NCBI GenBank assembly: GCA_016490735.1
Contig: JAEMWC010000038.1
Location: 412,001-476,000, forward strand
DNA: 64,000 nt
Reading direction: 5' to 3'
Source of the DNA: Pachyseris speciosa
Lineage: Eukaryota > Cnidaria > Anthozoa > Scleractinia > Pachyseridae
Shown: positions 16,553-35,662 of the stretch, piece by piece
Layout: the number at the start of each line of letters is the position of its first letter
Position numbering within the stretch: the first letter of the stretch is position 1
Notes under the pieces: generated by a model
What the model saw: only the letters and a program-made list of their open reading frames with translations
Told to the model about the DNA's origin: nothing
Database searches by the model: none
Made by a program: the position numbers and the translations under genes

Positions 16553-16558
16553 ATCTAA
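16553..16558. repeat. Polinton target site duplication, left (ATCTAA)
   Basis: ATCTAA directly precedes the element's terminal AGTAGT and is repeated exactly after the right terminus at 35657-35662. Six-base duplications are the rule for Polinton integration. Confidence 0.95.
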
Positions 16559-19800: not shown

Positions 19801-20670
19801 TAAACAATCCCCTTGGCTGAGGCAGTACATTGATTTCAATACACAGAAAAGAACTAATGCCAAAATGCTTTTGAGAAAGACTTTTTCAAGTTAATGAACA
19901 ACTCAGTATTTGGCAAAACTATGGAGAATCTCAGAAAGAGAGTAGATGTCAGATTGGTGACTGATGAGAAGAAGCTATTGAAATTAGCCAGTAAACCAAC
20001 TTATGTTAGCAGTAAGATATTCAATGAAAATCTGGTAGCAGTGCATAAGATCAAAGAAACACTAACTCTAAACAGGCCGGCATATGTAGGAATGTGTATT
20101 CTTGATCTCAGTAAGACGCTTATGTATGATTTCCATTACAACTACATTAAACAAAAGTACGGTAATAAGGCTAAGCTGCTCTTCACTGACACGGACAGTT
20201 TGACATATGAAATTGAAGCTGAAGATGTCTACAGGGATTTCTGGAATGATAAAGATAAATTCGATAACAGTGACTATCCTGAAAGCTCGCCATTCTCCGA
20301 TAAGACCAATAAGAAAGTGATTGGTAAGATGAAAGATGAGGCTGCTGGAGTCCCAATATGTGAATTCGTAGGGCTGAGATCAAAGATGTATAGCTATATT
20401 AAAGATGATCAGAAAGGAGGAAAAACAGCAAAAGGAATCAAAAAGAACACAATCAAAAATGAAATCAAGCATGAAAATTATAAAGACACTCTATTCAATG
20501 ACAAACAAATGTATCATAAAATGAAAACAATCAGAAGTGAAAACCATCAATTAGGAAGCTATGAAATCAACAAAGTATCACTCAGCTGCTTCGATGACAA
20601 AAGATATTTATCAAAAGACGGAATCAACAGTTATGCTTATGGCCATCATAAAATAAATAGCCAGGAATAA
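16779..20670 (+). CDS. PolB: Protein-primed family B DNA polymerase (frameshifted)
   Basis: Replicates the element, presumably from the termini by protein priming. Three frame segments (16779-18587, 18584-19894, 19894-20670) form one gene of about 1,300 codons, with indels near 18525 and 19862. The N-terminus has a 45-nt tandem repeat and three P-x-x-x-P-R motifs (residues 91-138), then a C2H2-like HFCMHC..H..C finger near residues 410-435. Exonuclease motifs follow: FVIYADFEA (Exo I), FHNLRGYDSHF (Exo II), YLKTDVLLLADVF (Exo III). Polymerase motifs: A YLDANNLYGWAMSQ, B LMNNSVFGKT, C FTDTDSL, with the catalytic Asp pair present. The first 25 codons lie in the TIR and are identical to those of the VLTF3-like gene. 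Family certain; both breaks are single indels. Confidence 0.95.
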
Positions 20671-20744
20671 AAATATTCTTGGCTACCAAAATAGCAAATA
20701 CAGTATAATACTGACCTCTCTCACATATATAGGTTAGATAAAAG

Positions 20745-21527
20745 TTAGTCTTTTCTTATACGTGATAAATACAATTTGCTTTCTTCCATGTGTTTGGTTA
20801 TTTCAAAAATTAAATCTTCAAAACAATTGCTCATAATGTATTTGCACTTGTTTTTCTCATACATTTGCTTCATACTTTTTTGTTTATCAGTCACTTGGTA
20901 TACACCAGTGGGACTTTTGAATTCAAGACATAGAGCATTGTATTCTTTTGTTGGATTCATTAACATTAAATCACATTGTCCGGACATATATCCTTTGTTG
21001 TAACTTTTGATTCTCATGTTTGAGCTTATTTGATTCTCACCTAAGCCGGCTATCATTAATGCGTCTTCATATTTCTTTCTGATGAATGAAACAATCTTGC
21101 AGTGTAAATCATTTTCATTTTCAATCAATAGCATGTTATTGTTTCTGTCATTGAACTGTTTTTGATATATTCGTTTTCTGACTAATGGTAAGACCTTTTT
21201 AGTAACCCAATGTTTAATTTCTTTGGCTTCTTGTTTTTTGGATGAGAATAAAAGTGAATGAAATCCTGTTTCATTTATAAAAAAACATTTGAAAGTTTTT
21301 TCGATTGCATCAGCGAAAATTGACTTTGTTTTGGAATTTATGGACAGTTTGAAGTCCAATAAGATTTTATCTTCAGAATCAACATGATCTCTGATTGCTC
21401 TTTGCGGATTTTTATAGTTGAGAATAATGGCTATGTCTCTTCCTCTGAACCATATATCGTTTTTATCATCGAGATAACAATCTATTGAAACGTCTAATTC
21501 TTTATTATCGTAAGAATAATTTTGCAT
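20745..21527 (-). CDS. Bro-N domain protein with nuclease-like C-terminus
   Basis: 260 residues. Residues about 10-140 match the viral Bro-N DNA-binding domain: WFRGRDIAIILNYKNPQRAI, then FINETGFHSLLFSSK and IKHWVTKKVLPLVRK. The C-terminal half has GQCDLMLMNP then LCLEFKSP, a D...ExK pattern as in PD-(D/E)XK/VRR-NUC-type nucleases; this is inference from motifs. Such proteins occur in baculoviruses, NCLDVs and some Polintons, with roles in DNA binding or host regulation. The ATG directly follows the shifted stop of the integrase gene. ATCTAA lies 11 nt before the ATG (21539-21544). A motif-plus-ATG-plus-stop relic follows its 3' end near 20725. Confidence 0.8.
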   Translation of the reverse strand: MQNYSYDNKELDVSIDCYLDDKNDIWFRGRDIAIILNYKNPQRAIRDHVDSEDKILLDFKLSINSKTKSIFADAIEKTFKCFFINETGFHSLLFSSKKQEAKEIKHWVTKKVLPLVRKRIYQKQFNDRNNNMLLIENENDLHCKIVSFIRKKYEDALMIAGLGENQISSNMRIKSYNKGYMSGQCDLMLMNPTKEYNALCLEFKSPTGVYQVTDKQKSMKQMYEKNKCKYIMSNCFEDLIFEITKHMEESKLYLSRIRKD

Positions 21528-22412
21528 CTACATGTATGTTAGATAATTTTCTTTAAATCCTTGATCGGTATCCAAGCTGTTGAAGTCGTCACTATAACCC
21601 TTCCACTTCACCAAAGCTTGTTTCTTCTTGTAATCTCTGCGAATGACTTTATCAATGCGGAATACATCCTGTTTAGCCTTTAATAACTCAGGTTCATAAA
21701 AACTCCCTTCAATTTCTTCATCGTTGTGATCTTTTAGTTTGTATGTTATTGGATTAGTGTATTGGATTTTATCAACTATAAACACTTCTTCTGTCCAATT
21801 TGGTGTATAGCCCTTGTCGAACACAATCCGTTTATACTTGGATATTCGGACCTTATCACCTATTTTAAATTTTAGTTTCTGTTTTAATGGCTCCATATCA
21901 CCATACAAATTGAAGTAAACAGTTCCTTCATTCCTCTTATCAGATGCTTCAACGGGTGTCATCTTTGTGCTTGAATGTTTGGTGTTATTATACTGTTTCA
22001 CTAATTTTGGTAACATGTCTAAATACTGTGTATTACCTTGAACAGTGAACTGCTTCCACATTTTGGATTTAATTGTCCTATTCCATCTTTCAACTACTGA
22101 TGACTTCTCTTCATTCTCAGTTGAGTACATCTGTACACTATGTTTCTCTAGCAAGTCCTTCAAGTGTTTGTTGTAAAACTCTTTTCCCTTGTCGACCCAT
22201 AAATACTGTGGTTTTCTACCTTCCTTGAATATTGATTTGAATGCTTCAGTGACAGATTCACCTTTCTTATCCTTCAATGGGACAATCCAACCATATTTGC
22301 TGAAGACATCAATAACCATAAGAAGATATCGATAACCTTTATTCCATTTACTGAACTGTTGCATTTCAACTAGATCACTTGCCCATATTTCATCAATTTT
22401 ATTTACAATCAC
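21528..22412 (-). CDS. RVE (retroviral-type) integrase with chromodomain
   Basis: Joins the element's ends to host DNA, giving the 6-bp duplication. The DDE core is intact: Asp in WASDLVEM (about residue 13), Asp in WVDKGKEFYN (74), Glu in VVERWNRT (109), with 34 residues between the last two. An SH3-like stretch (KIGDKVRISKYK) and a chromodomain-like VDKVIRR..QALVKWKGYSD end the protein. The 294-residue frame opens with GTG, and the same frame stays open upstream to about 22530, overlapping the PLA2 gene, so the true N-terminus with LADELHAP and KRNFTRRR lies further upstream without a visible ATG. A one-base insertion near 21582 shifts the last 15-20 codons of the chromodomain. Confidence 0.93.
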   Translation of the reverse strand: MIVNKIDEIWASDLVEMQQFSKWNKGYRYLLMVIDVFSKYGWIVPLKDKKGESVTEAFKSIFKEGRKPQYLWVDKGKEFYNKHLKDLLEKHSVQMYSTENEEKSSVVERWNRTIKSKMWKQFTVQGNTQYLDMLPKLVKQYNNTKHSSTKMTPVEASDKRNEGTVYFNLYGDMEPLKQKLKFKIGDKVRISKYKRIVFDKGYTPNWTEEVFIVDKIQYTNPITYKLKDHNDEEIEGSFYEPELLKAKQDVFRIDKVIRRDYKKKQALVKWKGYSDDFNSLDTDQGFKENYLTYM

Positions 22413-22459
22413 ACGCCGCCGAGTGAAATTTCGTTTTATGGGTGCATGTAATTCATCAG

Positions 22460-23098
22460 CTAGTTTTTCTTGCCAGTTTTCTTCACTCGACGGCTTTTTC
22501 CGTTTTTTGAAACACCGAGACCAAGTTTCTGTTTTTTGTCGATTAAGAATCTAGCTGTTTGACCCCATTTTGGCATCTCACCATATGGTATTTGATCTAG
22601 TGACTCGACCATTGTTCTATCACATTCACCTTTATTCTTTCCCATATCATAACAAATATCATGGTAAGCTGCTATTTCATCCACTTTGTTATAAGGTTGT
22701 ACATTCCATTTCAAGACCTCACCTGTATTTTTATCATACTCTAACTGTTTATCGAGGGGATTATAAGGTCCCATGTATTTATACTTTCCGGGTGTCCAAC
22801 CTGCTTTTGGTTTAGGAAGCTTGCCAATAACCTTATGAATGTCAATAGCACCGCCATAATCTAATCCTTTGATATCTGTTTTGTAACGAATATTTGGTCT
22901 CACTTTTGTTGAGAGTTGTTTCAAAGCTTCTGACCCAACCTTTGTGATTGCAGGTTTTGCGAGGGAAAGTCCTTTGTCAATTAATTTCTTTTGCAGCTTT
23001 GGATTTCTCATTGCTTCAGAAGCATAATATCTTCCCATTTCTACACCTTTCTTTGCTAAATAAGGGACTCCATGTTCTAAGAATCCTGTTAGCGCCAT
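22460..23098 (-). CDS. Parvovirus-type phospholipase A2 domain protein
   Basis: 212 residues. YMGPYNPLD (residues 108-116) matches the Ca2+-binding loop and DEIAAYHDICYD (140-151) the His-Asp catalytic helix of the secreted-type PLA2 found in parvovirus VP1, where it breaches the endosomal membrane during entry. A basic tail (SRRVKKTGKK) could be a nuclear-localisation or DNA-binding segment. Similar PLA2 proteins are known in adintovirus/Polinton relatives. The frame is open some 20 codons upstream of the chosen ATG and I see no ATCYAA motif there, so the start is less certain. It overlaps the upstream extension of the integrase. Confidence 0.85.
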   Translation of the reverse strand: MALTGFLEHGVPYLAKKGVEMGRYYASEAMRNPKLQKKLIDKGLSLAKPAITKVGSEALKQLSTKVRPNIRYKTDIKGLDYGGAIDIHKVIGKLPKPKAGWTPGKYKYMGPYNPLDKQLEYDKNTGEVLKWNVQPYNKVDEIAAYHDICYDMGKNKGECDRTMVESLDQIPYGEMPKWGQTARFLIDKKQKLGLGVSKNGKSRRVKKTGKKN

Positions 23099-23142
23099 AT
23101 CTGCGGCTGAATCTAGTATGCCCGCCCCTTCAGACGGGCTAA

Positions 23143-23298
23143 TTAGTTTCCCCGATTTCTGACAAATTTAGTTTTTGTGATTCCACATTCAGCACAAGTA
23201 CATTTCATCACAGTTCGACCATTTTTAGTCTTCTGATATCTTTCACTTCCTGGTACACATTCAGTGACTTTCTTCTGTTTCACACAATATGATCTCAT
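23143..23298 (-). CDS. Small zinc-ribbon protein (DUF5679-like)
   Basis: 51 residues from the preferred start at 23298. A longer frame opens at 23331, but the ATCCAA element (23309-23314) sits 10 nt before the second Met, as in other genes of this element. Two Cys pairs (ECVPG.. and CTCAECG) surround KTKNGRTVMKCTC, resembling the short viral zinc-ribbon family with NGRP..G.C..C. Function unknown; a nucleic-acid or packaging role is possible. It ends 44 nt upstream of the PLA2 gene. Confidence 0.65.
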   Translation of the reverse strand: MRSYCVKQKKVTECVPGSERYQKTKNGRTVMKCTCAECGITKTKFVRNRGN

Positions 23299-23303
23299 AT
23301 ATA

Positions 23304-23450
23304 TTAAGTTGGATAAAATAGCTTTCCACAATTTATCACCTGCTCTTTTTTCAATCTGATATTAATTATTTTATCAATTTCATTAGCTTTCTTGATCTTC
23401 TTTCTTTGTCTAGTAGTTAAATCGACATACATTTCCACTAAGTTTGTCAT
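23304..23450 (-). CDS. Mini-ORF, basic 48 residues (truncated core-protein paralog?)
   Basis: Begins MTNLVEMYVDLTTRQRKK and ends at a TAA embedded in the next gene's upstream element. LTTRQRKKIKKA..I..INIRLKKEQ resembles the N-terminus of the core protein at 24299-25150 (SGSQKQRLAKAI..VTLRL). It may be a decayed paralog, or the 3' half of the overlapping ORF 23410-23565 after a one-base shift near 23440. Too short to be sure that it is translated. Confidence 0.4.
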   Translation of the reverse strand: MTNLVEMYVDLTTRQRKKIKKANEIDKIINIRLKKEQVINCGKLFYPT

Positions 23451-23565
23451 AGAATACTGTTATATTATCCAAAGTGCATTTGATTACAACTCGTAAACCA
23501 ATCAATCTGTTGACAACTATTATAACAAATATATTAACATCATCAATTATTTCGAATTCTATCAT
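23410..23565 (-). CDS. Mini-ORF, hydrophobic 51 residues
   Basis: Begins MIEFEIIDDVNIFVIIVV. Its ATG overlaps the TGA stop of the degenerate protease gene (ATGA), and its 3' third overlaps the mini-ORF 23304-23450 in another frame. The central run NIFVIIVVNRLIGLRVVI could be a beta-strand pair or a membrane segment. No family recognised. It may be one gene with the next ORF, broken by an indel. Confidence 0.4.
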   Translation of the reverse strand: MIEFEIIDDVNIFVIIVVNRLIGLRVVIKCTLDNITVFYDKLSGNVCRFNY

Positions 23566-23840
23566 ACTTTTATGTTAGATAGAAATTTATTAAATCTTTC
23601 ATCATCAAATAATATTGTTAATATCATAGTACCTTTCTGACGTTCTAAAAGGTAGTACAAACACCATTGTTTACTCAATAACGGATCTCTAATACACATT
23701 GATTCATTGAAACAATTCTTTTCCTCCATTTGAGTAGGTATCTCCTGTCCTGATGGATCAAAGTATTCTTTCTCATTATAGCACGCGTAATATTTGCCGA
23801 CTTTTATTATCCCACTGTTTTTGTTTAACTTAACAGACAT
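23562..23840 (-). CDS. Degenerate adenain paralog (pseudoenzyme)
   Basis: 92 residues, uninterrupted. It aligns with the C-terminal half of the adjacent protease: GKYYACYNEKEYFDPSG against YRIGDRYCEYFDSFG, and then an identical 13-residue WCLYYLLERQKGT. The catalytic His-Trp is replaced, and the CG..C nucleophile segment reads SKQWC, so activity is not expected. At DNA level the shared 13 codons differ at eight positions, all synonymous, which argues against recent duplication and for selection on the protein. A role as assembly partner or protease cofactor is speculation. Confidence 0.65.
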   Translation of the reverse strand: MSVKLNKNSGIIKVGKYYACYNEKEYFDPSGQEIPTQMEEKNCFNESMCIRDPLLSKQWCLYYLLERQKGTMILTILFDDERFNKFLSNIKV

Positions 23841-23849
23841 ACATATACA

Positions 23850-24290
23850 TTACATATTTTTGAAATAATTGATTATGAATCTATGATTGACTCTTGTGTC
23901 TGTGGGATTGAATTTTGCATTATGAATGACTTTCAATATGGGGGTCCCTTTCTGTCTTTCCAATAAATAGTACAAACACCAATATCCACACAAGACTGAA
24001 TCTCTTTCTTGTATCTCATCTCCAGAGTATTCAAGTTGTTTTCCACTTGTAGCCATGTATTTCTGTACTTCTGTTGGCATCATTAAACCAAATGAGTCAA
24101 AGTATTCACAGTATCTATCACCAATTCGATAACATACCCAGTGAGTACCAGGTCCAATCTTACTGTCGAGATTGACTATCCCACATTCATTCTTTTTTAT
24201 TTGTCTAGGAAGATTGTCTCTTGAAAATACTCCTCTAAAATGTTTTATTCCAAGTTGTTTAACCCAATTGATTAAATCAAAGTTGGATAA
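23850..24290 (-). CDS. Adenain-like cysteine protease (C5 family), start codon unclear
   Basis: Matures capsid and core proteins. The frame contains LGIKHFRGVFSRDNLP, GTHWVCYR (catalytic His), EYFDSFG (Asp), IQERD (oxyanion Gln) and LCGYWCLYYL (Cys nucleophile), in adenain order. The frame is open from within the end of the preceding core gene through 24290, but it has no ATG before 24083, and starting there would remove the His. Either the initiator was lost, it uses a non-AUG codon, or a small indel hides it. It ends in FKNM at 23850, just before the degenerate paralog. Length of about 145-150 codons is slightly short for the family. Confidence 0.88.
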   Translation of the reverse strand, partial: LSNFDLINWVKQLGIKHFRGVFSRDNLPRQIKKNECGIVNLDSKIGPGTHWVCYRIGDRYCEYFDSFGLMMPTEVQKYMATSGKQLEYSGDEIQERDSVLCGYWCLYYLLERQKGTPILKVIHNAKFNPTDTRVNHRFIINYFKNM

Positions 24291-24298
24291 GGGTTTGT

Positions 24299-25150
24299 TT
24301 ACAAAATGGTTCCTAGTATGGGGATTGAATTGAATGGACTGTTTTTGCCCAGTAGAAGTCCTTTTCCTTTGTTTTTTTTTTTCATTCCATAACCGATTGG
24401 GTTATTCCATGTACCAAAAACAGGAGGAGATTGCCATGGAATCATAGCATGTTTCCCACCTTTCTTTCTGGGTACAATGTCATCTGGAACATGAACAGGT
24501 ATTGACCGTCTTGGACGGCTGCTTTCAACATGCAAACCTTTTCCAGTTAATTTTCTGATTGCTTCTATAGCCAAAGGAATTCCAATGCTGGCGAGTATTG
24601 TTCCAATACCCTTTCCAGTCTGCGCTTTTGTTGGTTTTATAACAACGTCTCCACCATACTGCATTTTTTGGATAACATCAGCCATCTGTCTCGTATTCAA
24701 TAAATTTCCTACATTCAATAATTGGGATAAATTGGCATTAGGAATAAGAAATCCTCCTTTTTGTTTCTTTCCAAATAGTTTATCAATGCCGAGACTTGCT
24801 AATGAAGAAAGAGCACCTGTAGCCAATGCTGGAGCCGCTTTAGCTACTGCTTTACCTGCATAAGGCAATAGTCTTGTTCCAAGTGAAAAAAGACTGGACC
24901 AAAGAGAACCTCCTTCTTGGACTGATTTTCTGATCTGTGCTTTGGATATCTTTACATCAGCACCTGTTCCATTTCTCTGTGATTTGGCTAATTTTTTTAT
25001 CTGTGTTTTTGTCAACATCATTTGATCACCTCCAGTGAGATCTCCATGTGCGAGTCTCAATGTTACCGGTGAATTTGTTTGTATAGCTTTTGCAAGCCTT
25101 TGCTTCTGACTTCCTGAAAGTCTTACTCCATGAGGATGATAAGTAGTCAT
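24299..25150 (-). CDS. Adenovirus pVI/pX-like minor core protein
   Basis: 283 residues. The N-terminus HGVRLSGSQKQRLAKAI with VTLRLAHGDLTGGDQM and LTKTQIKKLAKS is basic and repetitive. A central Ala/Gly-rich amphipathic stretch (about residues 82-125) could interact with membranes, and the tail is Lys/Gly-rich. Core proteins of this type condense DNA and link it to the capsid in adenovirus-like virions. L38-T-G-G-D fits the adenain cleavage rule (M/I/L)xGG|x, consistent with cleavage by the neighbouring protease. The AT-rich upstream region lacks a clear ATCYAA element. It overlaps the protease frame at its 3' end. Confidence 0.7.
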   Translation of the reverse strand: MTTYHPHGVRLSGSQKQRLAKAIQTNSPVTLRLAHGDLTGGDQMMLTKTQIKKLAKSQRNGTGADVKISKAQIRKSVQEGGSLWSSLFSLGTRLLPYAGKAVAKAAPALATGALSSLASLGIDKLFGKKQKGGFLIPNANLSQLLNVGNLLNTRQMADVIQKMQYGGDVVIKPTKAQTGKGIGTILASIGIPLAIEAIRKLTGKGLHVESSRPRRSIPVHVPDDIVPRKKGGKHAMIPWQSPPVFGTWNNPIGYGMKKKNKGKGLLLGKNSPFNSIPILGTIL

Positions 25151-25193
25151 ATAATATATGTTTATACTAAATTGTATTTAATATAAAACAATC

Positions 25194-25238
25194 ATTTAAT
25201 TTATTTAATTTATTTAATTTATTTAATTTATTTAATTT
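25194..25238. repeat. Five perfect 9-bp tandem repeats (ATTTAATTT)
   Basis: Five exact ATTTAATTT units between the capsid gene and the core-protein gene. The capsid TAA stop (25237-25239) lies in the last unit. It could act in leftward transcript 3' processing or upstream of the core gene; this is inference only. Confidence 0.9.
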
Positions 25239-26522
25239 ACATTGATCTCAGAATTAATTTTCCATCAGTCTTTCTCATCTCAATATCCTGCTCATAGAGG
25301 ACCAATGCATACACACTGTAATCAGCATTTGTTGCAGCACTAAAGTGTATTTGAAAGTCAGTTTTGTCATTCCATCTTTAATATCCTGTTTCTGTTTTGT
25401 CAGATCGAAATAAACAAAAGGGAATATTGTACCGAAAGTTGCCCCTGTTAAGAAGGGTACTTTCACTGAAATCATTTACAGCTTGAACATATTTCAAAAC
25501 ATCTCTAAATACTCTTGTTGGTTCTGTTGATGGTTTATAATGAACCTCTGGATAATCATTCCATTGCCAACTTCAAGATAACAATCAGTCAAAGTTTGTC
25601 ATTTGCAACTGAAAAGTGTTATAGAGAAATTTATTGGCTGTCTGAGATGCATCACTTGCATCATTGATGATGAATACAAAGACATGCCTGGGTTTGTTTA
25701 TTCCTGTGGAAATACGGAAATTGGCTGTCTGCTGTCTTGTTGAATTGCCTCTCTCAACCATTTCTCTCATGTAAGTCCACTTTCTGTTGTCAAGATACTT
25801 GCTCATGTATAAGGACTTTCCCGCAGAATTAAAAATAATGCGAGGAACAATTAGCTGGAATTTAGTTAGTACCACACGACAATCATCAGCAGCTTGCCAA
25901 ATCATATTGGCATCACTCTCAAGTGTCAATTTCACCTCTATTTTTGAGTTAGGCATAAGTTCATCCCAAAAGCTCTTGAAAAAACCGTATCTGTTCAATG
26001 CAAGCTCTGCATTTACTTTACCAGCTGCACCATTCAACAGTGCTTTGCGAGCTGCGAAACCTTTGTTATAAGTAGCCGCCTGTGCCACTCTATCATCAGC
26101 ATTCCTATTTGTGTCAAGATAGAAGAACTCATTGGTTCCCTGACTTACAGCATAACCCTGTGAATACTCAAGCAATGACTTAATATTTGTGGCTTGGTTG
26201 GCATCTCTGCACTCATAAACATCAAGACCATTCATTTTCACATTAATGGTGTTAATAAGAGCGTGAACTGAATTAACAATACCATTTCGATCTCAGCAGC
26301 AATGTGGCCTCCATCTGCAAGCTTTTTCACAATGAAATCGACATTAAAACGGGCATTATACCAGTCAAATGGTGTAGTCTCTCCACTGTTATCAACAACG
26401 AAACGGTAACCTGTTTTCCTCTGATGAGCATTGTTTGCTACTACAGTATTAAGTGCTGTCTCTAGTTCGAACACTACATCTTCATATCTTTCGATATATT
26501 TTGAGTCACGATAGTTTGACAT
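25237..26522 (-). CDS. MCP: Major capsid protein, double jelly roll (frameshifted)
   Basis: About 425 codons over four frame segments: 26522 to about 26288, then to about 25586, then a short piece to about 25560, then to the TAA at 25237. Recognisable landmarks are the N-terminal TTPFDWYNARFNVDF segment, a central FKSFWDELMPNSKIEVKLTL and the C-terminal YSVYALVLYEQ segment of the Polinton/adintovirus hexon-like capsid family. Each break is a small indel with the next frame resuming at once. It sits between the core-protein gene and the AT-hook gene, the expected morphogenesis block. ATCTAA lies 11 nt before the ATG (26534-26539). Confidence 0.88.
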
Positions 26523-26544
26523 ATATTATTGTGTTAGATAAAAG

Positions 26545-26775
26545 TTATTTTATTTTACGTGGTCGACCTCTCTTTCTTTTGATTAAACCACCAGTCTGGC
26601 TCACACTCTCAGTTCCACTTTTTCTCTTTTTCAAAAGTTCTATGATTTTGTCACCAGCTTTTTTGCCAGCATGTTCACCAATTGTTGTTGCTGCTTTTTT
26701 TCCAGCTGTTTTGATCATATCAGTCACAATACCTTCACCATGTTGTTCATATTTTTTAAACTCAAACCGTTTCAT
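26545..26775 (-). CDS. Small basic protein with AT-hook
   Basis: 76 residues, strongly basic. A helix-like middle with repeated HAGKKAGDK-type words is followed by a C-terminal KRKRGRPRKIK, a textbook AT-hook (GRPRK). It is likely a DNA-binding virion core protein comparable to adenovirus VII or pX by position next to the capsid gene. An ACCTAA variant of the upstream element lies 6 nt before the ATG (26782-26787), closer than in other genes. Confidence 0.7.
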   Translation of the reverse strand: MKRFEFKKYEQHGEGIVTDMIKTAGKKAATTIGEHAGKKAGDKIIELLKKRKSGTESVSQTGGLIKRKRGRPRKIK

Positions 26776-26788
26776 ATACTATTAGGTT

Positions 26789-27574
26789 TTATAATTCCAC
26801 ACTTCTCAAGAACAACTCAATATACCAATCTATCCCATTTAAATCGACTGGAGCTCTAGAAGAGTCTGTGACATAAAAGCGTATTGAGCTGATTGTATGT
26901 GTTGAGACTGGATTCCATGAAAGAAAACGAGGTTTGTAAGTGAAAGGTAAACTTCTAACGAGATCTGTGACAGGAATAACAGCGATTGTATTTGTGCTAT
27001 TTCCATCAACAATGCTATCTGTCACCAAATCACAATTGATATAAATTTCATCTACTCCTCTTGTAATATCAGGTAGATTTGTTCCATATTCTGTGGCTGG
27101 AACTAATTTTGAATCGAAACCGATAAGTTTTCTGAAATCAAGATTCCTCAGATCCACACGATAATTTTCATTGAGTTCAATCAAAATGCGATATGTTGAC
27201 AAAACGAAATACATGTTAATACCATACTTGAATTTTGATTTGTCTGTTTCAGATGGATTCAGTACATGGCTGTTTTTTCTCATATACTCATGAATGTAAC
27301 TATTGATATCGTCGTATGAATACATCCCGTTAACGAATGTTATTGTTTCCCAGTTTACACCTTTGTCATAGCTGTATTTCATTTGATTATTCCCAAAAAT
27401 ATCTCTGATATTGTACCAACTGTATGTCATATTGATGACATTCACAGCCATTTCATATTTTAAATCATTCGTTAATTTAAGAGGTGTATTGAATCTTTTT
27501 TCAAAATCATGACTCTTGCTGACACCAATTTTGTCTCTGTTTTTACTGTTGAATCGTAATGAAATTTCTGTCAT
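26789..27574 (-). CDS. Penton / minor capsid protein (single jelly roll)
   Basis: 261 residues, intact. NVINMTYSWYNI near residues 45-57, then a W..ITFVNGMYSYDDINSYI segment (about 75-95) and a long beta-rich C-terminus ending in IDWYIELFLRSVEL match the Polinton minor capsid protein that forms the pentameric vertices. The gene lies directly downstream of the coiled-coil gene. ATCTAA is 11 nt before the ATG (27586-27591), overlapping the stop codon region of the coiled-coil gene. Confidence 0.85.
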   Translation of the reverse strand: MTEISLRFNSKNRDKIGVSKSHDFEKRFNTPLKLTNDLKYEMAVNVINMTYSWYNIRDIFGNNQMKYSYDKGVNWETITFVNGMYSYDDINSYIHEYMRKNSHVLNPSETDKSKFKYGINMYFVLSTYRILIELNENYRVDLRNLDFRKLIGFDSKLVPATEYGTNLPDITRGVDEIYINCDLVTDSIVDGNSTNTIAVIPVTDLVRSLPFTYKPRFLSWNPVSTHTISSIRFYVTDSSRAPVDLNGIDWYIELFLRSVEL

Positions 27575-27580
27575 ATACTT

Positions 27581-28385
27581 TTACATTAGATATTTCATCA
27601 TTATTTTATTCAACTCACCGGTTTTCAGGATTCCCAGTCTGTTCAATGTATGCAATATATTTGTGAATTCATTTTTACACCCATGCTGTTGTTGCCGGCT
27701 GAAATAGATCCACCAAGCAACTGTAAACTTGAAAGCATGTCACCCAAAAATGCACCCCTTGAACCCATTCCTTTCCCTGTTTTGTATTTGTAAGAAGCTA
27801 ATACATCATCAATCGTTTCTCTGTATTTCTTCAAAGTTTGTATTTCTCTTTTATGAGATTCATTTTCTTCTGGAGTGAATGATTTTTTTTTCTTCTTCCC
27901 ATATTCTGGGCTATTTCTTTAGCTTTTTTCTTTTCCTCGACAAGTTTTTGTGGGGCGACTTGAGTCAAATCGCTTGGTTTCAAAAGCCTGTTATTTTTTA
28001 ATATAATTCTATCATCTCTATCGAAATAGTTATCGATCGATAATATGTTGGGTGCCTGATCCTCTTTTTCAGGTGCTTCAATTGTCAAAGGAAGTTCCGT
28101 TCCCATTGTAATTGCTCTGCGATTAGCTTCAATAACATCATCAAGTCCTTGTGTTAAAGCCTGTTGATTTTTTTTCAACTGTTTAATGACTTCATCCTGT
28201 TTTTTGTCGACACTTTCTTTCACACTCTTCTGGACATCAATAGAGGGTTTCAGCAATTCTGATGTTGTATCATATGCATCCTGTTTTCTGTATTCATAAG
28301 TCTTGATAACATCACGAACTTCTCTTGTTTTGTTTCCAGCTTCAATTCCACTTTTAAGAAGCCTTTTCATTCGTTCTATATCCAT
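27581..28385 (-). CDS. Coiled-coil virion protein (frameshifted)
   Basis: About 265 codons in three segments, broken near 27887 (poly-A run) and 27665 (five-A run). The ATG at 28385 follows GTCTAA by 11 nt, which favours it over the TTG at 28391. The N-terminal half is a long charged helix (VKESVDKKQDEVIKQLKKNQ), the middle holds RDDRIILKNNRLL, and the C-terminal part has KKYRETIDDVLASY, GKGMGSRG and a hydrophobic LSSLQLLGGSISAGN. L-L-G-G-S fits the adenain cleavage rule. Conserved next to the penton in Polinton-like elements; precise role unknown, probably a structural or cement protein. Confidence 0.65.
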
Positions 28386-28421
28386 ATACAATTGTGTTAG
28401 ACTAATCTAAACTATTTACAT
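28386..28421. promoter_or_regulatory. 36-bp divergent late-type promoter
   Basis: The whole gap between the coiled-coil gene (-) and packaging ATPase (+) is 36 bp. It contains GTCTAA read leftward (28397-28402) and ATCTAA read rightward (28405-28410), each exactly 11 nt from its ATG. This is the centre from which the two gene blocks diverge. Confidence 0.6.
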
Positions 28422-29059
28422 ATGGAAATCCCTAATTATGATATTCAGGGTTTAAAGAATTCATTCAGACAGTTGTATCCGTATATGCCAAAAGACACTT
28501 TCAGGATGCTGCTGGCTGGTAATTCTGGATCTGGAAAGACAACATTGTTCATGCATCTGATTATGGAACCGTTGGTTTATTATGATCAGATACATCTTTA
28601 TGCAAAAAATTTGGATCAAGACAAGTACAAATATCTTCGGAAAGTAATGGATGAAATAAGCAGTCACATTGGATATCCTGCCTTGGTTTGCAGTCAAGAA
28701 GAGATATTGCCAGTTGAACAAATAAAAGACACAGATTTGCAGCGATTGGTTGTTTTTGATGATTTTGTCACTGATAAAAAACAAGATCAATAATCAGCTA
28801 TTTCATTCAGGGGAGACACAAGAACTGTTCAGTCATATATCTCACACAATCATTCTATGGCTGTCCAAAATCAATCAGACTCAATTGCAGTCACTTCTGC
28901 CTTTATGATTTCCCATCCTCAAGAGAAAGGAACTTGATTGCACAAGAACTTGGAATCGACAAGAAGAAATACATTGAAGCAACCAAAAAACCATATTCCT
29001 TCTGTTATGTCGACAAGCCGATGAAAACAATCAAGAGAAATTTTTATGGTGCTGTTTAA
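28422..29059 (+). CDS. FtsK/HerA-type DNA packaging ATPase (A32-like, frameshifted)
   Basis: Powers genome packaging into the capsid. Walker A GNSGSGKT is at residues 33-40 and Walker B LVVFDDF at about 109-115. After an indel near 28787 the other frame gives YFIQGRHKNCSVIYLTQS, the sensor/arginine-finger region, followed by ERNLIAQELGIDKKKY and a stop at 29057-29059. Total of about 212 codons is normal for Polinton ATPases. ATCTAA lies 11 nt before the ATG. Confidence 0.92.
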
Positions 29060-29075
29060 TCTAATCTAATATTAT

Positions 29076-29315
29076 ATGGCAATCAATAATTTTCAAAATC
29101 CAGAAAAACAGGAGAATCCCAGAACAGAAAGAATCGAAAAATTGATCAAACCTGACGCTGCTGTTAAAACACCATTTGAAATCGCTGAAAAAATCAAAAT
29201 GGAAGTATATAGGAGGACACAAAAAGTATTGAAAAACAATAAGAGACTACCTGTCATCTATGAAACCATACCACCTAAATTCTCGGAAGATGAAAGCAGT
29301 GATGAAGAAAATTAA
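29076..29315 (+). CDS. Small protein with acidic tail, unknown
   Basis: 79 residues: a charged start, PFEIAEKIKMEVYRRTQK in the middle and an acidic tail ending EDESSDEEN. No family recognised. It lies 16 nt after the ATPase stop and is preceded by two overlapping ATCTAA elements (29059-29064 and 29064-29069), the first 11 nt from the ATG. It ends 17 nt before the fibre gene. Likely a real co-regulated gene. Confidence 0.65.
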   Translation: MAINNFQNPEKQENPRTERIEKLIKPDAAVKTPFEIAEKIKMEVYRRTQKVLKNNKRLPVIYETIPPKFSEDESSDEEN

Positions 29316-29332
29316 TCTAACAAGATGATATA

Positions 29333-32300
29333 ATGGGAGTTTTTAATGCTCAAATAAATCAAGATAAAACAGAAACTGGTACTGGTGAAAGAGGCCCAGC
29401 TGGTCCAGTTGGTCCCAAAGGTGAAAAAGGTGATAGAGGTCCAAAAGGTAATACAGGTGCAATTGGTCCACAAGGAGCTACTGGAGCTGTTGGTCCCAAA
29501 GGTGATGGATTTAGATTAACACAAGATGGTAATTATGACATTGAAAATAAACGTTTGACAGATGTTGGTGATCCAGTAAATCATTATGATTCTGCTAACT
29601 TGGGATATGTTAATGATGCTGTTTTATCAATTGAAGGAACACGTGTTAATCCATTCAAATTTCTTCTTGAAGATACATCAAAAACAACTATTCTTAGAAA
29701 TGCGAATAATCTGCAATTGGAAGATTTTGACAAAAGCCCTTACTCATTTAATAAAATAGCCTTGTCTTTTGTTATTCCTTCTGCTGGTCTTACAACTGTT
29801 CTTCGTTTTGATCTGACACAATTGGAAGTTTCAAAGTACACTTTAGTTGTTGAGTTTTATACTGATGGTAGCCCAAATAATGCAACAGTCGATGACGACA
29901 ATCTGTCATCTAATTTAATTGAAAGAAAGGATTCAATAAAAAGAGCATTTCCAAAGACTCATCTTGTTGATGGTTATCTCAAAAGAATATTCTTCCTTGA
30001 AAAAACAAGTCATGGTTCCACATCAATGGAGTTATTGTTGATTTCACCATATTTACAAAATAATAAAAAACATTATGTTATAGTTTATGGTGTTTATGGA
30101 TTTTCTAATATCATTTTATCACATATTCACGACCCAGCTTTTGAAATAGAAGAAGGAAGAATTGTATTTGATCGTGAGCTTAAAATGAGTTTTCATAGAA
30201 TAGTCAATGTTGCAAGCCCTATACTTCCACAAGACTGTGCAAATAAAAAATACGTTGATGATGCTGCCATATATCTGACGAATAATAAAGCGAATATAGC
30301 ATATGTTAATTCTAACTTTGTGAAAAAAGATGGAAGCGTTGCAATGACTTCTGATTTGAATCTTGGAGGTAACAAATTGACTAATGTAGCAGCGCCAACA
30401 GCAAACAATGATTCAGCCACAAAGGGGTATGTTGATACTGAAATTGCTGGAATTACTGGCATTGATGTTTCACCATTTCTTAAAAAAGATGGAAGTGTTG
30501 CAATGACTGGTGATCTTGACATGGGTGACAATAAAATAACAAATGTTGGGCTCCAACTCTGATAAAGATTCTGCCAACAAAAAGTATGTTGATGACCTTG
30601 TTTTTTCAGCATCAGGAGCTCAACGCAACCCATTCGCTTTTCTGTTAAAAGATATATCCAAGTCTTCTGCAGTTAGTGATGCAACAAACCTTCAAATTGA
30701 GAATTTTGACAGATCACCATACCACATAAACAAGTCCTCATTGTCTTTTTTCATTTCACATAGTGGCAACTTTACATCCAAAATTCGTTTTAATGTGACA
30801 TCTTTAAGAAACAGTCAGTACACTTTTGTTGTTGAGTTTTACTCACCATCAGATCCAAGAAGTGCAACAGTTAATTATTCCTTCCAACTGTAAATATACG
30901 AGATGCGGGACAGCCGTTTCAAAAACCTTTTCCTGAAACTCCACACGTTGATGGTTATATGAAAAACTTTTCCAGATAGAAAAAACAAGTGGTGGTCAAG
31001 CGGCAATACAGGTGGAACTTTCCAGCACAGCTCCTGCGTCTAACACCAAAACACATATCATCGTTTATGGGGCCTATGGCTATCATACCAATTTGTCTTA
31101 CTTTGTTCATGACCCAGCTTATGAAATTGAAAACGGTCATGTTGCGTTTGGTAGTAATGTTGACATGAAATTGAACAAAATCATCAACCTGCAGGATAAC
31201 CCCTCAAACCCACAAGACGCTGTAAACAAAAGTTATGTGGACCAGAGGTTGCAAACCAAACTCGATGCGATTGCACAACAAAATCTGAATATGAACAACA
31301 ATGCCATTACTGATCTTGCTCCACCTGTCAACGCAGACGATGCGGTGACAAAACTTTATACTGACGAATATTTTCTCCGACGAGACGGTTCGACTGCAAT
31401 GTATGGCGATTTGTCGATGGGTGGAAATAGAGTGACTAATTTAGCGGACGTGGTGAATGAAACTGATGCAGTGAACTTCAGAGTTTTAAATCAAGCTTCA
31501 CAAACCATCAGAGCAAACACTTTATTATTGAATGGAACAAATGCGATGGCAGCGGATATGAAACTTGGAGGGCATAAAATCATTGACTTAAAAGAAGGAA
31601 CAAATAAAACCGATGCCGTAAATTTAGATCAATTAGAAAAAAGTCATATTTCATCTGCTTCTCATCCAAAGAATGCTTTCAAATATTTGATGAATGATAT
31701 CGATGAAATTAGCACTGAATATGGCTTGACAGTTAATGGATATGTCAATTTACCTCGTTCACCACATTTGATTTCAAAAAAGGTCATTGATATAGACTTG
31801 AATAAAGAAGCTAATCATATTTACAGAGCTAAATTGGATTTAATATGTACACAATAAAAGATGGAAAATACACTTTCATTCTTGAATGGCTATTTCCTGA
31901 TTATGAAGGAATGAGTCTTAGTAGTGTAACATTCAGTGCAAGGTGGAATTACAATTCATAAAACTGTAGGGAGAAAATTTGATAACAGAAATGAAGATCA
32001 TTCGAGATATTTATTATGGATTGAAAAACCATCAGCAAGTTCACCACCTGAATATTTATATTGTACGATTCATATTAATGCTAACCCAACTTATCCAAAT
32101 AAGTACAAAGTTCATTGTGTTGCATATGGTATTGATTTTGAAGCTGTAGACGTTCCATCAAGTGTTTACGACTTCGCAGAAGCTTATAAAATCGTGAATG
32201 AAAAAATGCAATTACAAACTGATTTAGATTTGAATGGACATGCTTTGATTAATAATTCATCAAACTTATTTGACGGTCAAAATGGTGAATTGACAATGCT

Positions 32301-32882
32301 AAATAATATTAATATGAACAGCTTTCTTATAAGTGAGGCTAAACTTGGTGGTGATTTAAATCTGAATGGCTATAGAATTCATAATAATAGTTTGAATCTA
32401 TTTCGTTCAAGCGTTACAGGTGTAATCATGGAAACAGCTTTCGATCTCGGAGGATTTGCTCTCTACAGCCAAAATTAGGAGGTGATCTAAATTTGAATGG
32501 GAATGGAATAATCGGTCAAATACAATATTTAAATTGCTCTGTCAAAGCCAAACAAGGACATAATAAGAATGCTTTAAAGCCTGTATTGATAAATGGCTCT
32601 GATTTTTTAGTCATTCATAACAATAACTTTTATATTAAGAAAATGTATGTATTACAAGGAACAAAACCCGGAATATTCTACTTCAAGACAAAAGCTGAAG
32701 GTGGTAGGCCTTTGCCATTACCAGCAACTATTTATGAACACAGACATAATACTATGAGTAGAAACATCACAACGGTCAATATCAACAAATCATTATCGAG
32801 AGGCTATTTAATCATTGATTATTCACATCCTAATACAGGCGCATTTGATACAACATTCACACTTGAAGTGGTCATGAATTAA
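29333..32882 (+). CDS. Large collagen-stalk fibre protein (frameshifted)
   Basis: About 1,180 codons in several segments (29333-30562, 30543-30893, to about 30980, 31012-31857, to about 31965, then to 32478 and 32493-32882), all broken by indels. The N-terminus MGVFN.Q.NQD is shared with the next gene. Fourteen Gly-X-Y triplets (residues 18-59) form a collagen stalk. About eight copies of a phage-tail-fibre motif LxNVxxPxxxxDAxNKxYVD alternate with four diverged beta-rich modules that begin NPFxFLLxD in the first two. This is the architecture of a trimeric attachment fibre. ATCTAA lies 12 nt before the ATG. Receptor unknown. Confidence 0.8.
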
Positions 32883-32899
32883 TCTAAATTAATATTATA

Positions 32900-33910
32900 A
32901 TGGGAGTTTTTAATTCTCCACAAAATCAAGATAATAAAGGTGATAAAGGCGATACTGGTGCAATTGGTCCTAAAGGTGATAATGGAAATGGTTTTACATT
33001 AACACAAGATGGTCACTATGATCTTGGAAACAAACATTTGACTAATGTAAAAGCAGGCAATGATTCTGATCATGTTGTAATCAAATCACAAGTTTCAGAT
33101 ATTGTCAGAGATAGTTTTTTGGATTTGTGGGTTTCTGAATTCATCAGATTATACTCTAAATGTACTTATCAAATCGACAGAGCGAATAATAATTTTCTAG
33201 ATATGAATGCAGACAGAAAAGTTGAAACATTGTACGATCTCTCGAATGAAGAAAATAATGCAACGCAACCGACTTTGAACATAAGACCCACTGTTTGTAC
33301 CAAGGCTGAGAAACATAATGGACGTTATTATTTAGACTTTAATGGATCACAGAGAATGATAAGTCAAATCAATTTAAATAATGATGTTGTTAATATCTTC
33401 ATTGTTTATAAATTAAATTCAAATACAGGTGGAAATCCATGGAAAAATGGGCTTTTTGGTCATGATAATGGAGGTTATGATAAGTTTGTCAGCTATTACA
33501 ATGGTTCAAATTTAGTTATAAGTGGTGTTGATCAATCAAATTGTGTATATTTTGGTCCAGCAGCATCTATACAGAACTTCAGAAAGATATCTGATTATTC
33601 CTCAAATGATTTGGGTCAAATAAATGTTTGGTACTGCTTGTCTGTTCACTGGGATAATTTATCTTCTCCAAAAACAAACACAAGTAAAATCTATTGGAAT
33701 AAAAAACATATTGGAAGTTTTACAGCGGCTAACAGAATTGGTAGTCGGCAAATGACTTTTGGTGATTTGGATCCTAGCTCCATCGCACCTCTTGACGGTA
33801 GTGTTATTTTTTTCTGTGTGTACTTGGATTCTATATTAGACGAAAAAACAATTTCAGATCATCATCAAATTTTAATCCAACGATATAATATAAATGAACA
33901 AAATAATTAG
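32900..33910 (+). CDS. Second collagen-stalk fibre with lectin-like head
   Basis: 336 residues, intact. MGVFN.PQNQD, six Gly-X-Y triplets (about residues 13-32) and GFTLTQDGHYDLGNKHLTNV copy the layout of the larger fibre's N-terminus. The rest reads as a beta-sandwich of LamG/concanavalin-A type: FNGSQRMIS, VNIFIVYKL, WYCLSVHWDN, TFGDLDPSS and an LDEKTISDHHQILIQRY end. This suggests glycan or host-surface binding. ATCTAA is 12 nt before the ATG. The next gene starts 17 nt before this one's end. Confidence 0.78.
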   Translation: MGVFNSPQNQDNKGDKGDTGAIGPKGDNGNGFTLTQDGHYDLGNKHLTNVKAGNDSDHVVIKSQVSDIVRDSFLDLWVSEFIRLYSKCTYQIDRANNNFLDMNADRKVETLYDLSNEENNATQPTLNIRPTVCTKAEKHNGRYYLDFNGSQRMISQINLNNDVVNIFIVYKLNSNTGGNPWKNGLFGHDNGGYDKFVSYYNGSNLVISGVDQSNCVYFGPAASIQNFRKISDYSSNDLGQINVWYCLSVHWDNLSSPKTNTSKIYWNKKHIGSFTAANRIGSRQMTFGDLDPSSIAPLDGSVIFFCVYLDSILDEKTISDHHQILIQRYNINEQNN

Positions 33911-34313
33911 ATATGTGAGATGGTTTACTCGGGATGCTGAACGGAAAAACCCTGGTGTTGACAAGAGGATTTTGAAATCAGCTTTGGTTTATCAGTATTT
34001 GCATCACAAACATTTTAACAAATATATTGAAGTGAGAGACATTATCCAGGAGCATATAGGCATTGGATTAATCGGTCCCGGTGAGGGCTGCTTAACACAT
34101 TTTTTGGAGCATACTCTTGGTTGGATTGATACATTACAGACACATGGTATATTACACGATGCCTTCGGTAGGTTTTATGTCAAACATGCACTTGATAGAG
34201 GATATTCTTATGCTCTACCGTCTTTCTTAACGACTAAAATTAGTAAGTTATCACCTCTAAGTGGACAATTGTCTGGTTTGTGGTACTGTGTGTTGAACAG
34301 AATCGTTATATAA
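33894..34313 (+). CDS. Unknown 139-residue protein
   Basis: Intact frame overlapping the fibre's last codons. VRWFTRDAERKNPGVDKRI, IGPGEGCLTHFLEHTLGW and LSGLWYCVLNRIVI are distinctive, but I do not recognise a family. Central His and Cys residues might bind metal. An ATCCAA element (33875-33880) lies 13 nt before the ATG. The position between the fibres and a membrane protein suggests a virion or entry function, which is inference. Confidence 0.65.
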   Translation: MNKIIRYVRWFTRDAERKNPGVDKRILKSALVYQYLHHKHFNKYIEVRDIIQEHIGIGLIGPGEGCLTHFLEHTLGWIDTLQTHGILHDAFGRFYVKHALDRGYSYALPSFLTTKISKLSPLSGQLSGLWYCVLNRIVI

Positions 34314-34322
34314 GCAATAAAT

Positions 34323-34808
34323 ATGAAAGAGCGAAAAAGCATATTCAGCTGGAACCATATTTCAGGTGAATTAACAGAAGATCAGGTAAATGAATTAAAA
34401 TCCTATTACCGAACATATCACAGAAAGTGTTGGGCTTATAAACAAGCTGTTAAACGGTTCAAAAAATGGAAATTACTGGGGAATTCAGCATCCATTATAT
34501 TTGCAACTGGCGGTCTTGCCGCAAGTATTTCGACTGGTGGTGTTAGTTTAGTTGCCATCAGTACGGTATCACTTTTAATACAAGGTTGGATGAAACACAA
34601 GAACCTTGACATGAAAATACAGAATTGTACATATGCTTATCAAAGCTACCAGCATCTTCTCAATACAATAAAAGAAACCATGAGAAGCGGTAATTTTGAT
34701 AATTCCAGCATACACAATACAATGAAGAACATAGACGATTATGTTGTTGATAATAGTCCAATTATTGATAAGTACCTACTGAAATATGATGAAAAATTCA
34801 CTGTTTGA
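34323..34808 (+). CDS. Putative two-helix membrane protein
   Basis: 161 residues. A cytosolic N-terminal helix rich in Tyr/Lys (YYRTYHRKCWAYKQAVKRFK) precedes a hydrophobic hairpin at about residues 52-88 (SIIFATGGLAASISTGGVSL then VAISTVSLLIQG), and a long C-terminal helical part follows. The shape recalls two-TM effector-like domains such as SLATT, but I cannot claim homology. Starts 9 nt after the previous stop, without a clear ATCYAA element. Its 3' end overlaps the convergent VLTF3-like gene by 11 nt. Confidence 0.6.
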   Translation: MKERKSIFSWNHISGELTEDQVNELKSYYRTYHRKCWAYKQAVKRFKKWKLLGNSASIIFATGGLAASISTGGVSLVAISTVSLLIQGWMKHKNLDMKIQNCTYAYQSYQHLLNTIKETMRSGNFDNSSIHNTMKNIDDYVVDNSPIIDKYLLKYDEKFTV

Positions 34809-35436
34809 TAATACGAATAATCTTACCAAATATTAACAATAGAATCTCAACCCAATATTGATTATAAAATTTCAGTGTTTTCTTTGAGTTGGTTAATATG
34901 ATATACTCATAAGGCAGATCCATCATCATAAACAATTGTTTCAGAATGAATTTGGTGTTTATCATTCTTTTACGATTCTTATTCACCGAAGGGATGATAG
35001 TGTCTATCTCCTTGAATATTCTTAATATTTTACCCTTATCTTTTACTGAAATTTGAAATCTATTCTTGCAACATATACCATTTATCACATTTTCAATATG
35101 GTACTTCCGATGATATATAGATTTCCGCTTTATTTTATACATATTATTATGAAAGTCAACGTACTCCTTACAATAATCATAACCATGGACTGAACCACAA
35201 TTTGTACAAACATTTTCACCATTGTCATTAATCATTTTCTGATTATCACAACATGGTTCATTTTTGACACTATGTTCTGCTATCTTCTGATCACATAAAG
35301 GACATGTTAGATATTTTTCTACTTCACTAAAATATTCGTGAATATCCGGATTGCAAGGATCATTTACCATCTGGCTACCTGACCTGATTTGAGAGGGCTT
35401 TTCCAAGGCCCGGAGATTTCTTTCTTCATTCTCCAT
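34798..35436 (-). CDS. VLTF3-like late transcription factor
   Basis: 212 residues, intact. Zinc-binding Cys sets CPLC (45-48), CC (62-63) and CTNCG (77-81) precede YDYCKEYVDFHNNMYK, IYHRKYHIENVI and the C-terminal INTKFILKQLFMMMDLPYEY and SKKTLKFYNQYW. This is the signature of the poxvirus VLTF3 (late factor 3) family found across NCLDVs. It would activate late viral promoters. It starts inside the right TIR, so its first 25 residues equal those of the DNA polymerase, and it has the same TIR promoter. The link to the ATCTAA elements is inference. Confidence 0.78.
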   Translation of the reverse strand: MENEERNLRALEKPSQIRSGSQMVNDPCNPDIHEYFSEVEKYLTCPLCDQKIAEHSVKNEPCCDNQKMINDNGENVCTNCGSVHGYDYCKEYVDFHNNMYKIKRKSIYHRKYHIENVINGICCKNRFQISVKDKGKILRIFKEIDTIIPSVNKNRKRMINTKFILKQLFMMMDLPYEYIILTNSKKTLKFYNQYWVEILLLIFGKIIRIIKQ

Positions 35437-35656
35437 AATAACCTAAAGCGACATTTCTTTAAGTGTTTTTTATATCATAAAGTACTTAAATAGGTGACCT
35501 TGACCTTGGCAAAAAGTGTGCTGGATCACGTGACCTTGACCTTGGGCAAAAAGTGTGCTGGATCACGTGACCTTGACCTTGGCAAAAAGTGTGCTGTTTT
35601 GAAAAATTGCACAATTTTATGGAAAATGTGCCAGATCACCCATGTACTATACTACT
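35361..35656 (-). repeat. Polinton right terminal inverted repeat (296 bp)
   Basis: Reverse complement of 16559-16854 with no mismatch seen. It contains the start of the VLTF3-like gene, the AT-rich leader and the triple regulatory array (35494-35596). After the inner boundary the sequence reads ATCC, matching the second unit of the polymerase's 45-nt repeat for four more bases. Confidence 0.97.
35494..35596 (-). promoter_or_regulatory. Triple TCAAGGTCAC/CACGTG array in right TIR
   Basis: Mirror copy of the left array, directed toward the VLTF3-like gene. The same three units carry ERR/NR5A-type half-sites and two CACGTG E-boxes, 57 nt from the ATG. Confidence 0.6.
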
Positions 35657-35662
35657 ATCTAA
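35657..35662. repeat. Polinton target site duplication, right (ATCTAA)
   Basis: Exact copy of 16553-16558, directly after the terminal ACTACT. Confidence 0.95.

Follow-up and report, generated by a model that had tools for sequence, protein, structure and literature searches.

A bipartite ATCTAA-N8-TAT element before the morphogenesis genes of a coral Polinton, a probable core promoter and perhaps a late one

The window analysed here is a stretch of 64,000 nucleotides (nt) from the coral Pachyseris speciosa (contig JAEMWC010000038.1, in a 984-Mb assembly), and it contains one copy of a Polinton/Maverick element spanning 16559-35656 (19.1 kb). The element is bounded by terminal inverted repeats of 296 bp, which are 100% identical, and by a 6-bp target site duplication, ATCTAA, present on both sides. 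Genes for Bro-N, a PLA2-like protein, an A32-type packaging ATPase, a retroviral-type integrase and a VLTF3-like protein were identified in it. The integrase matched PF00665 with 34.8 bits (cut-off 32.6), and the ATPase open reading frame (ORF) matched PF04665 with 29.9 bits in the window and with 57.2 bits in the relative at locus L062 (cut-off 22.8). Several genes of this copy are fragmented, for example the polymerase, which is split into three ORFs.

The names polymerase, capsid, penton and protease are ones that we assume from an initial annotation of this DNA and from the typical gene content of Polintons, with no strong profile backing. The polymerase pieces gave no polymerase match in Pfam, PHROGs or (one piece) PDB, and their region holds what we take to be a DTDS-type motif. 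No convincing profile or PDB match was obtained for the capsid- and penton-labelled proteins, and the sole profile match of the protease-labelled ORF was weak (PF00770, E 0.041).

A short box, ATCTAA or a close variant, lies a few nt before the start codon of many of these genes, and it is the first part of a two-part element, ATCTAA-N8-TAT, in which N8 stands for any eight nt. The sites in the window are as follows.

21539-21544, minus strand: box ATCTAA, 11 nt before the Bro-N gene (20745-21527)
23309-23314, minus strand: box ATCCAA, 10 nt before the zinc-ribbon gene (start 23298)
23575-23580, minus strand: box, part of a perfect box-N8-TAT site, ahead of an unannotated ORF of 51 amino acids (aa) (23410-23562)
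25162-25167, minus strand: GTATAA, apparently a decayed box, before the 283-aa gene pX (24299-25150)
26534-26539, minus strand: box ATCTAA, 11 nt before the capsid-labelled gene (start 26522)
27586-27591, minus strand: box ATCTAA, 11 nt before the putative penton gene (26789-27574)
28397-28402, minus strand: box GTCTAA, 11 nt before the coiled-coil gene (27831-28385)
28405-28410, plus strand: box ATCTAA, 11 nt before the packaging ATPase gene (start 28422)
29059-29064, plus strand: box ATCTAA, 11 nt before the 79-aa gene (29076-29315)
29315-29320, plus strand: box ATCTAA, 12 nt before fibre 1 (29333-30562)
32882-32887, plus strand: box ATCTAA, 12 nt before fibre 2 (32900-33910)
33875-33880, plus strand: box ATCCAA, 13 nt before the 139-aa gene (33894-34313)

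The initial annotation had reported such boxes at spacings of 11, 10, 12 and 13 nt from the ATG, and all of its positions and spacings are exact. The divergent coiled-coil and ATPase genes have two boxes back to back in their common intergenic stretch of 36 nt (28386-28421). The Bro-N box carries the caveat that it sits in the 3' coding end of the integrase ORF.

The box is strongly enriched at gene starts of the element. RTCYAA (R, A or G; Y, C or T) was present 10-13 nt upstream at 10 of 17 Polinton gene starts, which we picked ourselves and which include those of the initial annotation; the count becomes 10 of 20 if three further boxless candidate starts are added (the integrase ORF, a 92-aa ORF at 23840 and a 79-aa ORF at 32643). 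In 2000 dinucleotide shuffles, the kind of control that the initial annotation had proposed, the mean was 0.13 boxed starts and the maximum was 2. The initial annotation had held that equal frequency at internal ATGs or in unrelated sequence would speak against the motif; the box was found at only 6 of the 828 other ATGs within the element and at 10 of the 1545 ATGs of the flanks. When all hexamers were scored without supervision in distance bands of 3 nt, ATCTAA at 11-13 nt also came out on top (7 of 17 genes), and the best hexamer in 1000 shuffles had 5 genes, a value reached once. On both strands together, RTCYAA-N8-TAT occurs 13 times in the 19.1-kb element and once in the 44.9 kb of flanks. 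Seven of the 13 sites lead to listed genes and one to the 51-aa ORF, which had no convincing homologue in the fetched loci, and there the pattern may be a chance occurrence.

The genome contains many hundreds of Polinton copies. Searching it with the window penton revealed at least 147 copies that are 97-100% identical, and a more distant penton query gave at least 146 best matches, of which 30 were fetched and are 43-96% identical to the window's; both counts are lower bounds and the two lists may overlap. Upstream sequences of 13 genes were taken from 60 penton loci, ten further stretches (together 70 genome loci) and the window. Rows were excluded when the match started past query residue 6, when no ATG lay within a few codons or when the locus edge intervened; the coiled-coil gene lost most rows in this way (29), followed by fibre 1 (23). 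Two fibre-fibre duplicates were removed as well. The non-redundant set, in which upstreams differ by more than 20% over 45 nt within each gene, comprised 81 sequences including the window.

The box stood 8-14 nt from the ATG in 67 of these 81 upstreams, and at 32 of 3485 other ATGs in a control on 17 of the 70 genome loci. It was found before the capsid gene in 18/19, penton in 11/13, coiled-coil in 9/10, ATPase in 10/10, pX in 3/4, the 76-aa gene in 3/5, the fibres in 5/5, the 79-aa gene in 1/1, Bro-N in 1/3, zinc ribbon in 2/4, the 139-aa gene in 2/4 and the 161-aa gene in 2/3. Column information was 0.36-0.95 bits at positions -19 to -12 and 0.27-0.88 bits at -8 to -1, and at most 0.20 bits from -24 to -45. 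In addition, exact matches to ATGACAGAAATNNCATT, the penton gene start, numbered 1465 genome-wide against 2 in a backward control, and ATCTAA stood at exactly 11 nt in 1323 of the 1465 (0 in the backward control), many of these starts being near-identical copies and not independent. TATCTAANNTAATNGTATATG occurred 360 times genome-wide and never in the backward control.

Individual genes show how the box is kept or lost in relatives. The Bro-N box is present in L067 and decayed in L069; zinc ribbons have ATCTAA in L068 and L069. The fibre 1 box is also found in L062 and L065, and that of fibre 2 in L063 and L064. Relatives of the 139-aa gene have ATCTAA at 11 nt (L065), ATCTGA (L064) or ATCTAA only 3 nt from the ATG (L062). 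Relatives of pX in L067-L069 have ATCTAA or GTCTAA at 11 nt, and the 161-aa gene (34323-34808, plus strand), which is bare in the window, has ATCTAA at 11 nt in L064 and at 8 nt in L065. Because boxes exist in these other families, the pX and 161-aa upstreams of the window look decayed. The 161-aa protein itself has a weak match to SLATT_1, a two-helix membrane effector domain (18.7 bits, cut-off 26.3).

The second part of the element is defined by its distance from the box. TAT follows at exactly 8 nt in 59 of 69 upstreams (57 of 67 without two duplicated fibre rows), and where the ATG is not at 11 nt, TAT is still kept at 8 nt in 11 of 17 (9 of 15 without the duplicated fibre rows). Since the TAT spacing holds when the ATG moves, box and TAT are mostly one unit, behind which the ATG floats by a few nt. 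The near-constant distance from box to ATG in the initial annotation was correct in its values, and is better described as box-N8-TAT with a floating ATG. The ATGs concerned look like genuine starts, judged by conserved N-termini and close upstream stops: 52 of 58 penton copies begin with MTEISLRFNS, and the 45 nt upstream hold an in-frame stop in 57/59 penton, 60/60 capsid, 50/50 coiled-coil and 51/56 ATPase sequences.

The polymerase gene (16779, plus strand) and the VLTF3-like gene (35436, minus strand) of the window start within the terminal repeats, and neither is preceded by a box, as the initial annotation had stated.

16553-16558 and 35657-35662: target duplication ATCTAA, identical to the promoter box
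16559-16854, plus strand: left terminal inverted repeat, containing the polymerase gene upstream region, with a TATAAAA-like stretch and no ATCTAA box
35361-35656, minus strand: right terminal inverted repeat, 100% identical to the left, containing the VLTF3-like gene upstream region
34798-35436, minus strand: VLTF3-like zinc-ribbon gene, candidate late transcription factor, no box

Each terminal repeat (16635-16720 and 35495-35580) contains three tandem AAGGTCAAGGTCA units, two then followed by TCACGTGA. These units resemble nuclear-receptor and E-box sites, and may be sites for host factors.

The VLTF3-like protein of the window matched PF04947 with 26.3 bits (cut-off 25). We found 75 homologues, and an alignment of 31 sequences (the window and 30 of the 75) showed six invariant cysteines; 23 of the 31 matched PF04947 at E 1e-3. 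A PDB sequence search gave weak matches only, the best being NusA (E 0.038 and 0.092). The same genome also has seven PF04947 matches of 47.7-81.5 bits (C743:37301, C283:899025, C435:84384, C234:72449 and 845432, C402:481964, C10:495256). The remaining 77 matches score lower (27.8-34.7 bits), and some of these are found at about 7 kb from a penton match (e.g. C1032, C391). The seven stronger matches are possibly remnants of other large DNA viruses.

The target duplication of the window copy has the same six letters as the box, and this is coincidence. Matching 6-bp pairs about 19 kb apart were found at further copies (e.g. C24, C45, C139), and the pair at C353 was mismatched. A target preference for box-like sites was considered and rejected: the hexamers varied among 68 repeat ends, and ATCTAA/TTAGAT was seen solely at the window copy. 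The genome-wide list of 68 comprises ends with A or T at the first duplication base, G/C-preceded ends not being included.

Because an element of fixed geometry directly precedes many unrelated genes, we consider ATCTAA-N8-TAT to be quite probably the core promoter of the Polinton morphogenesis genes, which we read as a late class. The late-promoter proposal of the initial annotation is borne out as to a fixed-geometry element before morphogenesis genes, far above chance and kept across divergent copies; late timing would be a further step. Part one would be the upstream box (T)TATCTAA, and part two an initiator-like stretch of approximately TAAT-NN-TAT, from about 2 nt after the box and ending in the TAT 8 nt after it. 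Transcription would most likely begin in the initiator-like stretch and give an mRNA leader of 0 to about 10 nt. Median distances from promoter to start of 11 and 12 nt have been given for yeast linear plasmids and vaccinia early promoters in the cited part of that work (PMC6211774). Since a distance of this kind would fall on the TAT block or on the ATG, a nearly leaderless mRNA seems plausible.

In the proposed order of events, host-type sequences of the terminal repeats would have the polymerase and VLTF3-like genes expressed at the outset. Next, a factor would guide a borrowed RNA polymerase to these boxes, and joint expression would follow of the Bro-N, zinc ribbon, pX, capsid, penton, coiled-coil, ATPase, 79-aa, fibre, 139-aa and 161-aa genes. 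The best candidate for the factor is perhaps the VLTF3-like protein of the element. The polymerase is probably that of the host, because no RNA polymerase subunit was seen among the ORFs or Pfam matches of the element. A wider scheme is offered as no more than tentative: the element may run a complete private two-stage programme. Its first stage would be expression of the polymerase and VLTF3-like genes from host-type sequences of the terminal repeats, and in the second the VLTF3-like protein would direct host RNA polymerase to ATCTAA-N8-TAT promoters, yielding late mRNAs with hardly any leader. The TCTA core common to these Polintons, mavirus and CroV would in that case be an ancestral late promoter of the Polinton-virophage-giant virus assemblage and not an adaptation of a virophage to its giant virus.

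Several observations weigh against the promoter reading or narrow it. What the data show directly is the sequence, its geometry, the set of genes and the conservation, and promoter function, start site, late timing, factor and polymerase are inferred from these. Five of the 13 box-N8-TAT sites in the window element lead to no gene, and the integrase, protease and PLA2 ORFs were seen to have no box of their own. Among the 81 non-redundant upstreams 14 are boxless, including 2/3 for Bro-N, 2/4 for zinc ribbon and 2/4 for the 139-aa gene. One of these is a matter of start-codon choice (the Bro-N gene of L067 has an in-frame ATG 10 nt after a box), and others are altered boxes, such as ATATAA ahead of both L067 zinc ribbons. 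Box absence before the polymerase gene was seen in the window, no relative's polymerase start having been recovered, and before VLTF3-like genes in three copies (window, L064 and L065). The PF04947 match of the window is weak and barely over the cut-off, 8 of the 31 aligned sequences miss it at E 1e-3, and the VLTF3-like proteins of L064 and L065 gave no PF04947 match.

The relatives, too, all come from one genome and are not independent, and they resemble recombining mosaics. Among L001-L030, whose pentons are 99-100% identical, some capsid and coiled-coil matches are just 54-66% identical to the window's; therefore recombination between copies is suggested. In L061 and L066, which surround the penton of L044 (43% identical), tblastn detected no Polinton genes. 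In IMG/VR no relative was confirmed with the penton protein and alignment, the polymerase piece, the ATPase alignment or the VLTF3-like alignment. A two-block pattern scan there gave 47 contigs with one match each and the box at 3 of 414 ORFs of at least 70 aa, which is background, and no IMG/VR contig with the regulon was found.

Other explanations of the element were compared with the core promoter reading. It is rather unlikely that the box reflects a virophage-like dependence, in which it would mimic a late promoter of some co-infecting giant virus and the structural genes would be transcribed by that virus's polymerase and late factors, a scheme put forward for mavirus and CroV. The TCTA core is indeed the same as that described for mavirus, type 4 endogenous mavirus-like elements (EMALEs) and late genes of Cafeteria roenbergensis virus (CroV) in the cited passages (PMC8547959, PMC10945749). 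Moreover, an RNA polymerase gene was not seen in the element, and the seven stronger PF04947 matches in the same genome are perhaps remnants of other viruses. Nevertheless, the element carries its own VLTF3-like gene, and TCTA is a short core that could be convergent; the capsid profile of nucleocytoplasmic large DNA viruses, PF04451, had 0 genome matches, which is uninformative since control genomes also had 0. We also hold it improbable that the element is an ordinary host polymerase II core promoter, TATA-like or initiator, with no viral factor required. A Polinton integrated in a nuclear genome needs a polymerase and the downstream TAT block is initiator-like, but the box ends 8-13 nt from the ATG, and by the usual spacing from TATA box to start it would, as a TATA box, set the start inside the coding region. 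Over the 45 nt examined, just 5 of 67 upstreams had a TATAWA (W, A or T) ahead of the box. At flank ATGs in general the box stays close to background (10/1545), and RTCYAA-N8-TAT occurs once in the 44.9 kb of flanks.

A signal acting on the RNA is very unlikely, be it a context for translation initiation or a trans-splice acceptor whose branch point is CTAA-like. Both parts of the element do sit just before the ATG, and CTAAC resembles a branch point. However, an AG lies between box and ATG in only 16 of 67 upstreams, fewer than a trans-splice acceptor would call for, and in 11 of 17 upstreams with a shifted ATG the TAT block has not moved relative to the box; because the TAT geometry is tied to the box and not to the ATG, both forms of this explanation are disfavoured. 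Mere shared ancestry, with the copies of one young family simply being alike, has hardly any probability left. The near-identical penton copies (at least 147, 97-100%) fit it, but the same motif stands ahead of ten different genes within one element, and it persists while neighbouring columns change, the columns outside the two blocks being clearly less conserved.

The core promoter proposed here can be compared with known systems, each taken as it is described in the cited passages. A TCTA motif in AT-rich surroundings has been described for mavirus, type 4 EMALEs and CroV late genes and as absent from other EMALE types (PMC8547959), and only type 4 EMALEs responded to CroV (PMC10945749). The likeness to this motif noted in the initial annotation is real, as a TCTA core in AT-rich context was found upstream of the ORFs, and in both cases the genes belong to small integrating double-stranded DNA viruses (PMC8547959). 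Compared by published description, the Polinton element differs in its extended (T)TATCTAA, in a second block at fixed spacing and in lying mostly 11 nt from the ATG; the Polinton also has its own VLTF3-like gene, whereas the mavirus motif is attributed to giant-virus machinery. Mimivirus and Sputnik similarly have an AT-rich late motif common to a giant virus and a small dependent virus; in Sputnik it is on 8 of 16 late genes, and the cited description contains no fixed two-block geometry (PMC11998528). The upstream conserved sequence (UCS, ATNTGA) of yeast linear plasmids and the upstream control element (UCE) of vaccinia early genes are alike in being short elements before each ORF, with a start at near-constant distance downstream; the plasmid UCS differs in its TGA core, in usually lying 20-40 nt from the start codon and in using the plasmids' own RNA polymerase (PMC6211774).

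VLTF3 in Polinton-like company is not new. Adintovirus-like elements of Amoebidium are integrated and Polinton-related and have VLTF3, capsid genes and a family B DNA polymerase, in another host and with no promoter motif in the cited part of the description (PMC11244446), and an isolated asfarvirus-like VLTF3 was reported in the cnidarian Exaiptasia (PMC5294986). Meanwhile, a statement of 2024 in the cited text held homologues of VLTF2 and VLTF3 to be undetectable outside Nucleocytoviricota (PMC11253617). Among the titles and abstract openings of open-licence papers we found no description of such a promoter motif in metazoan Polintons, Mavericks or adintoviruses. In the portions considered of a paper on vertebrate Mavericks, the word promoter occurs solely in the discussion and in one reference title, and particles had not been observed (PMC8097293).

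Two overlaps between genes on the minus strand were also noticed. The end of pX is shared with the protease frame (24299-24401) and that of the PLA2-like ORF with the integrase frame (22460-22550), each of them lying in the -1 frame. In the window and L067 no ATG was seen upstream of the conserved protease sequence as far as the stop before it, the protease frame of L069 is open further upstream, with ATGs, and the first ATG of the window integrase ORF is 62 codons in. As we read the sequences, a poly-A heptamer in slippery phase is present in the window, L067 and L069, as A AAA AAC before the integrase and with AAC, AAG or AAA ends at pX; the fourth pX copy, in L068, is itself frameshifted. 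The overlaps are candidate sites of programmed -1 frameshifts in gag-pro-pol style; a literature search here brought up one paper, about the virome of a weevil.

These results bear on how capsid genes come to be expressed by the Polintons of animal genomes. A conserved promoter of strict geometry marks the genes that belong together, helps to find unannotated ones and can be tested directly. Should the box be read by the VLTF3-like protein, a factor family of Nucleocytoviricota type would work together with a borrowed polymerase in Polintons; should it be read by a giant virus, the elements would amount to hidden virophages.

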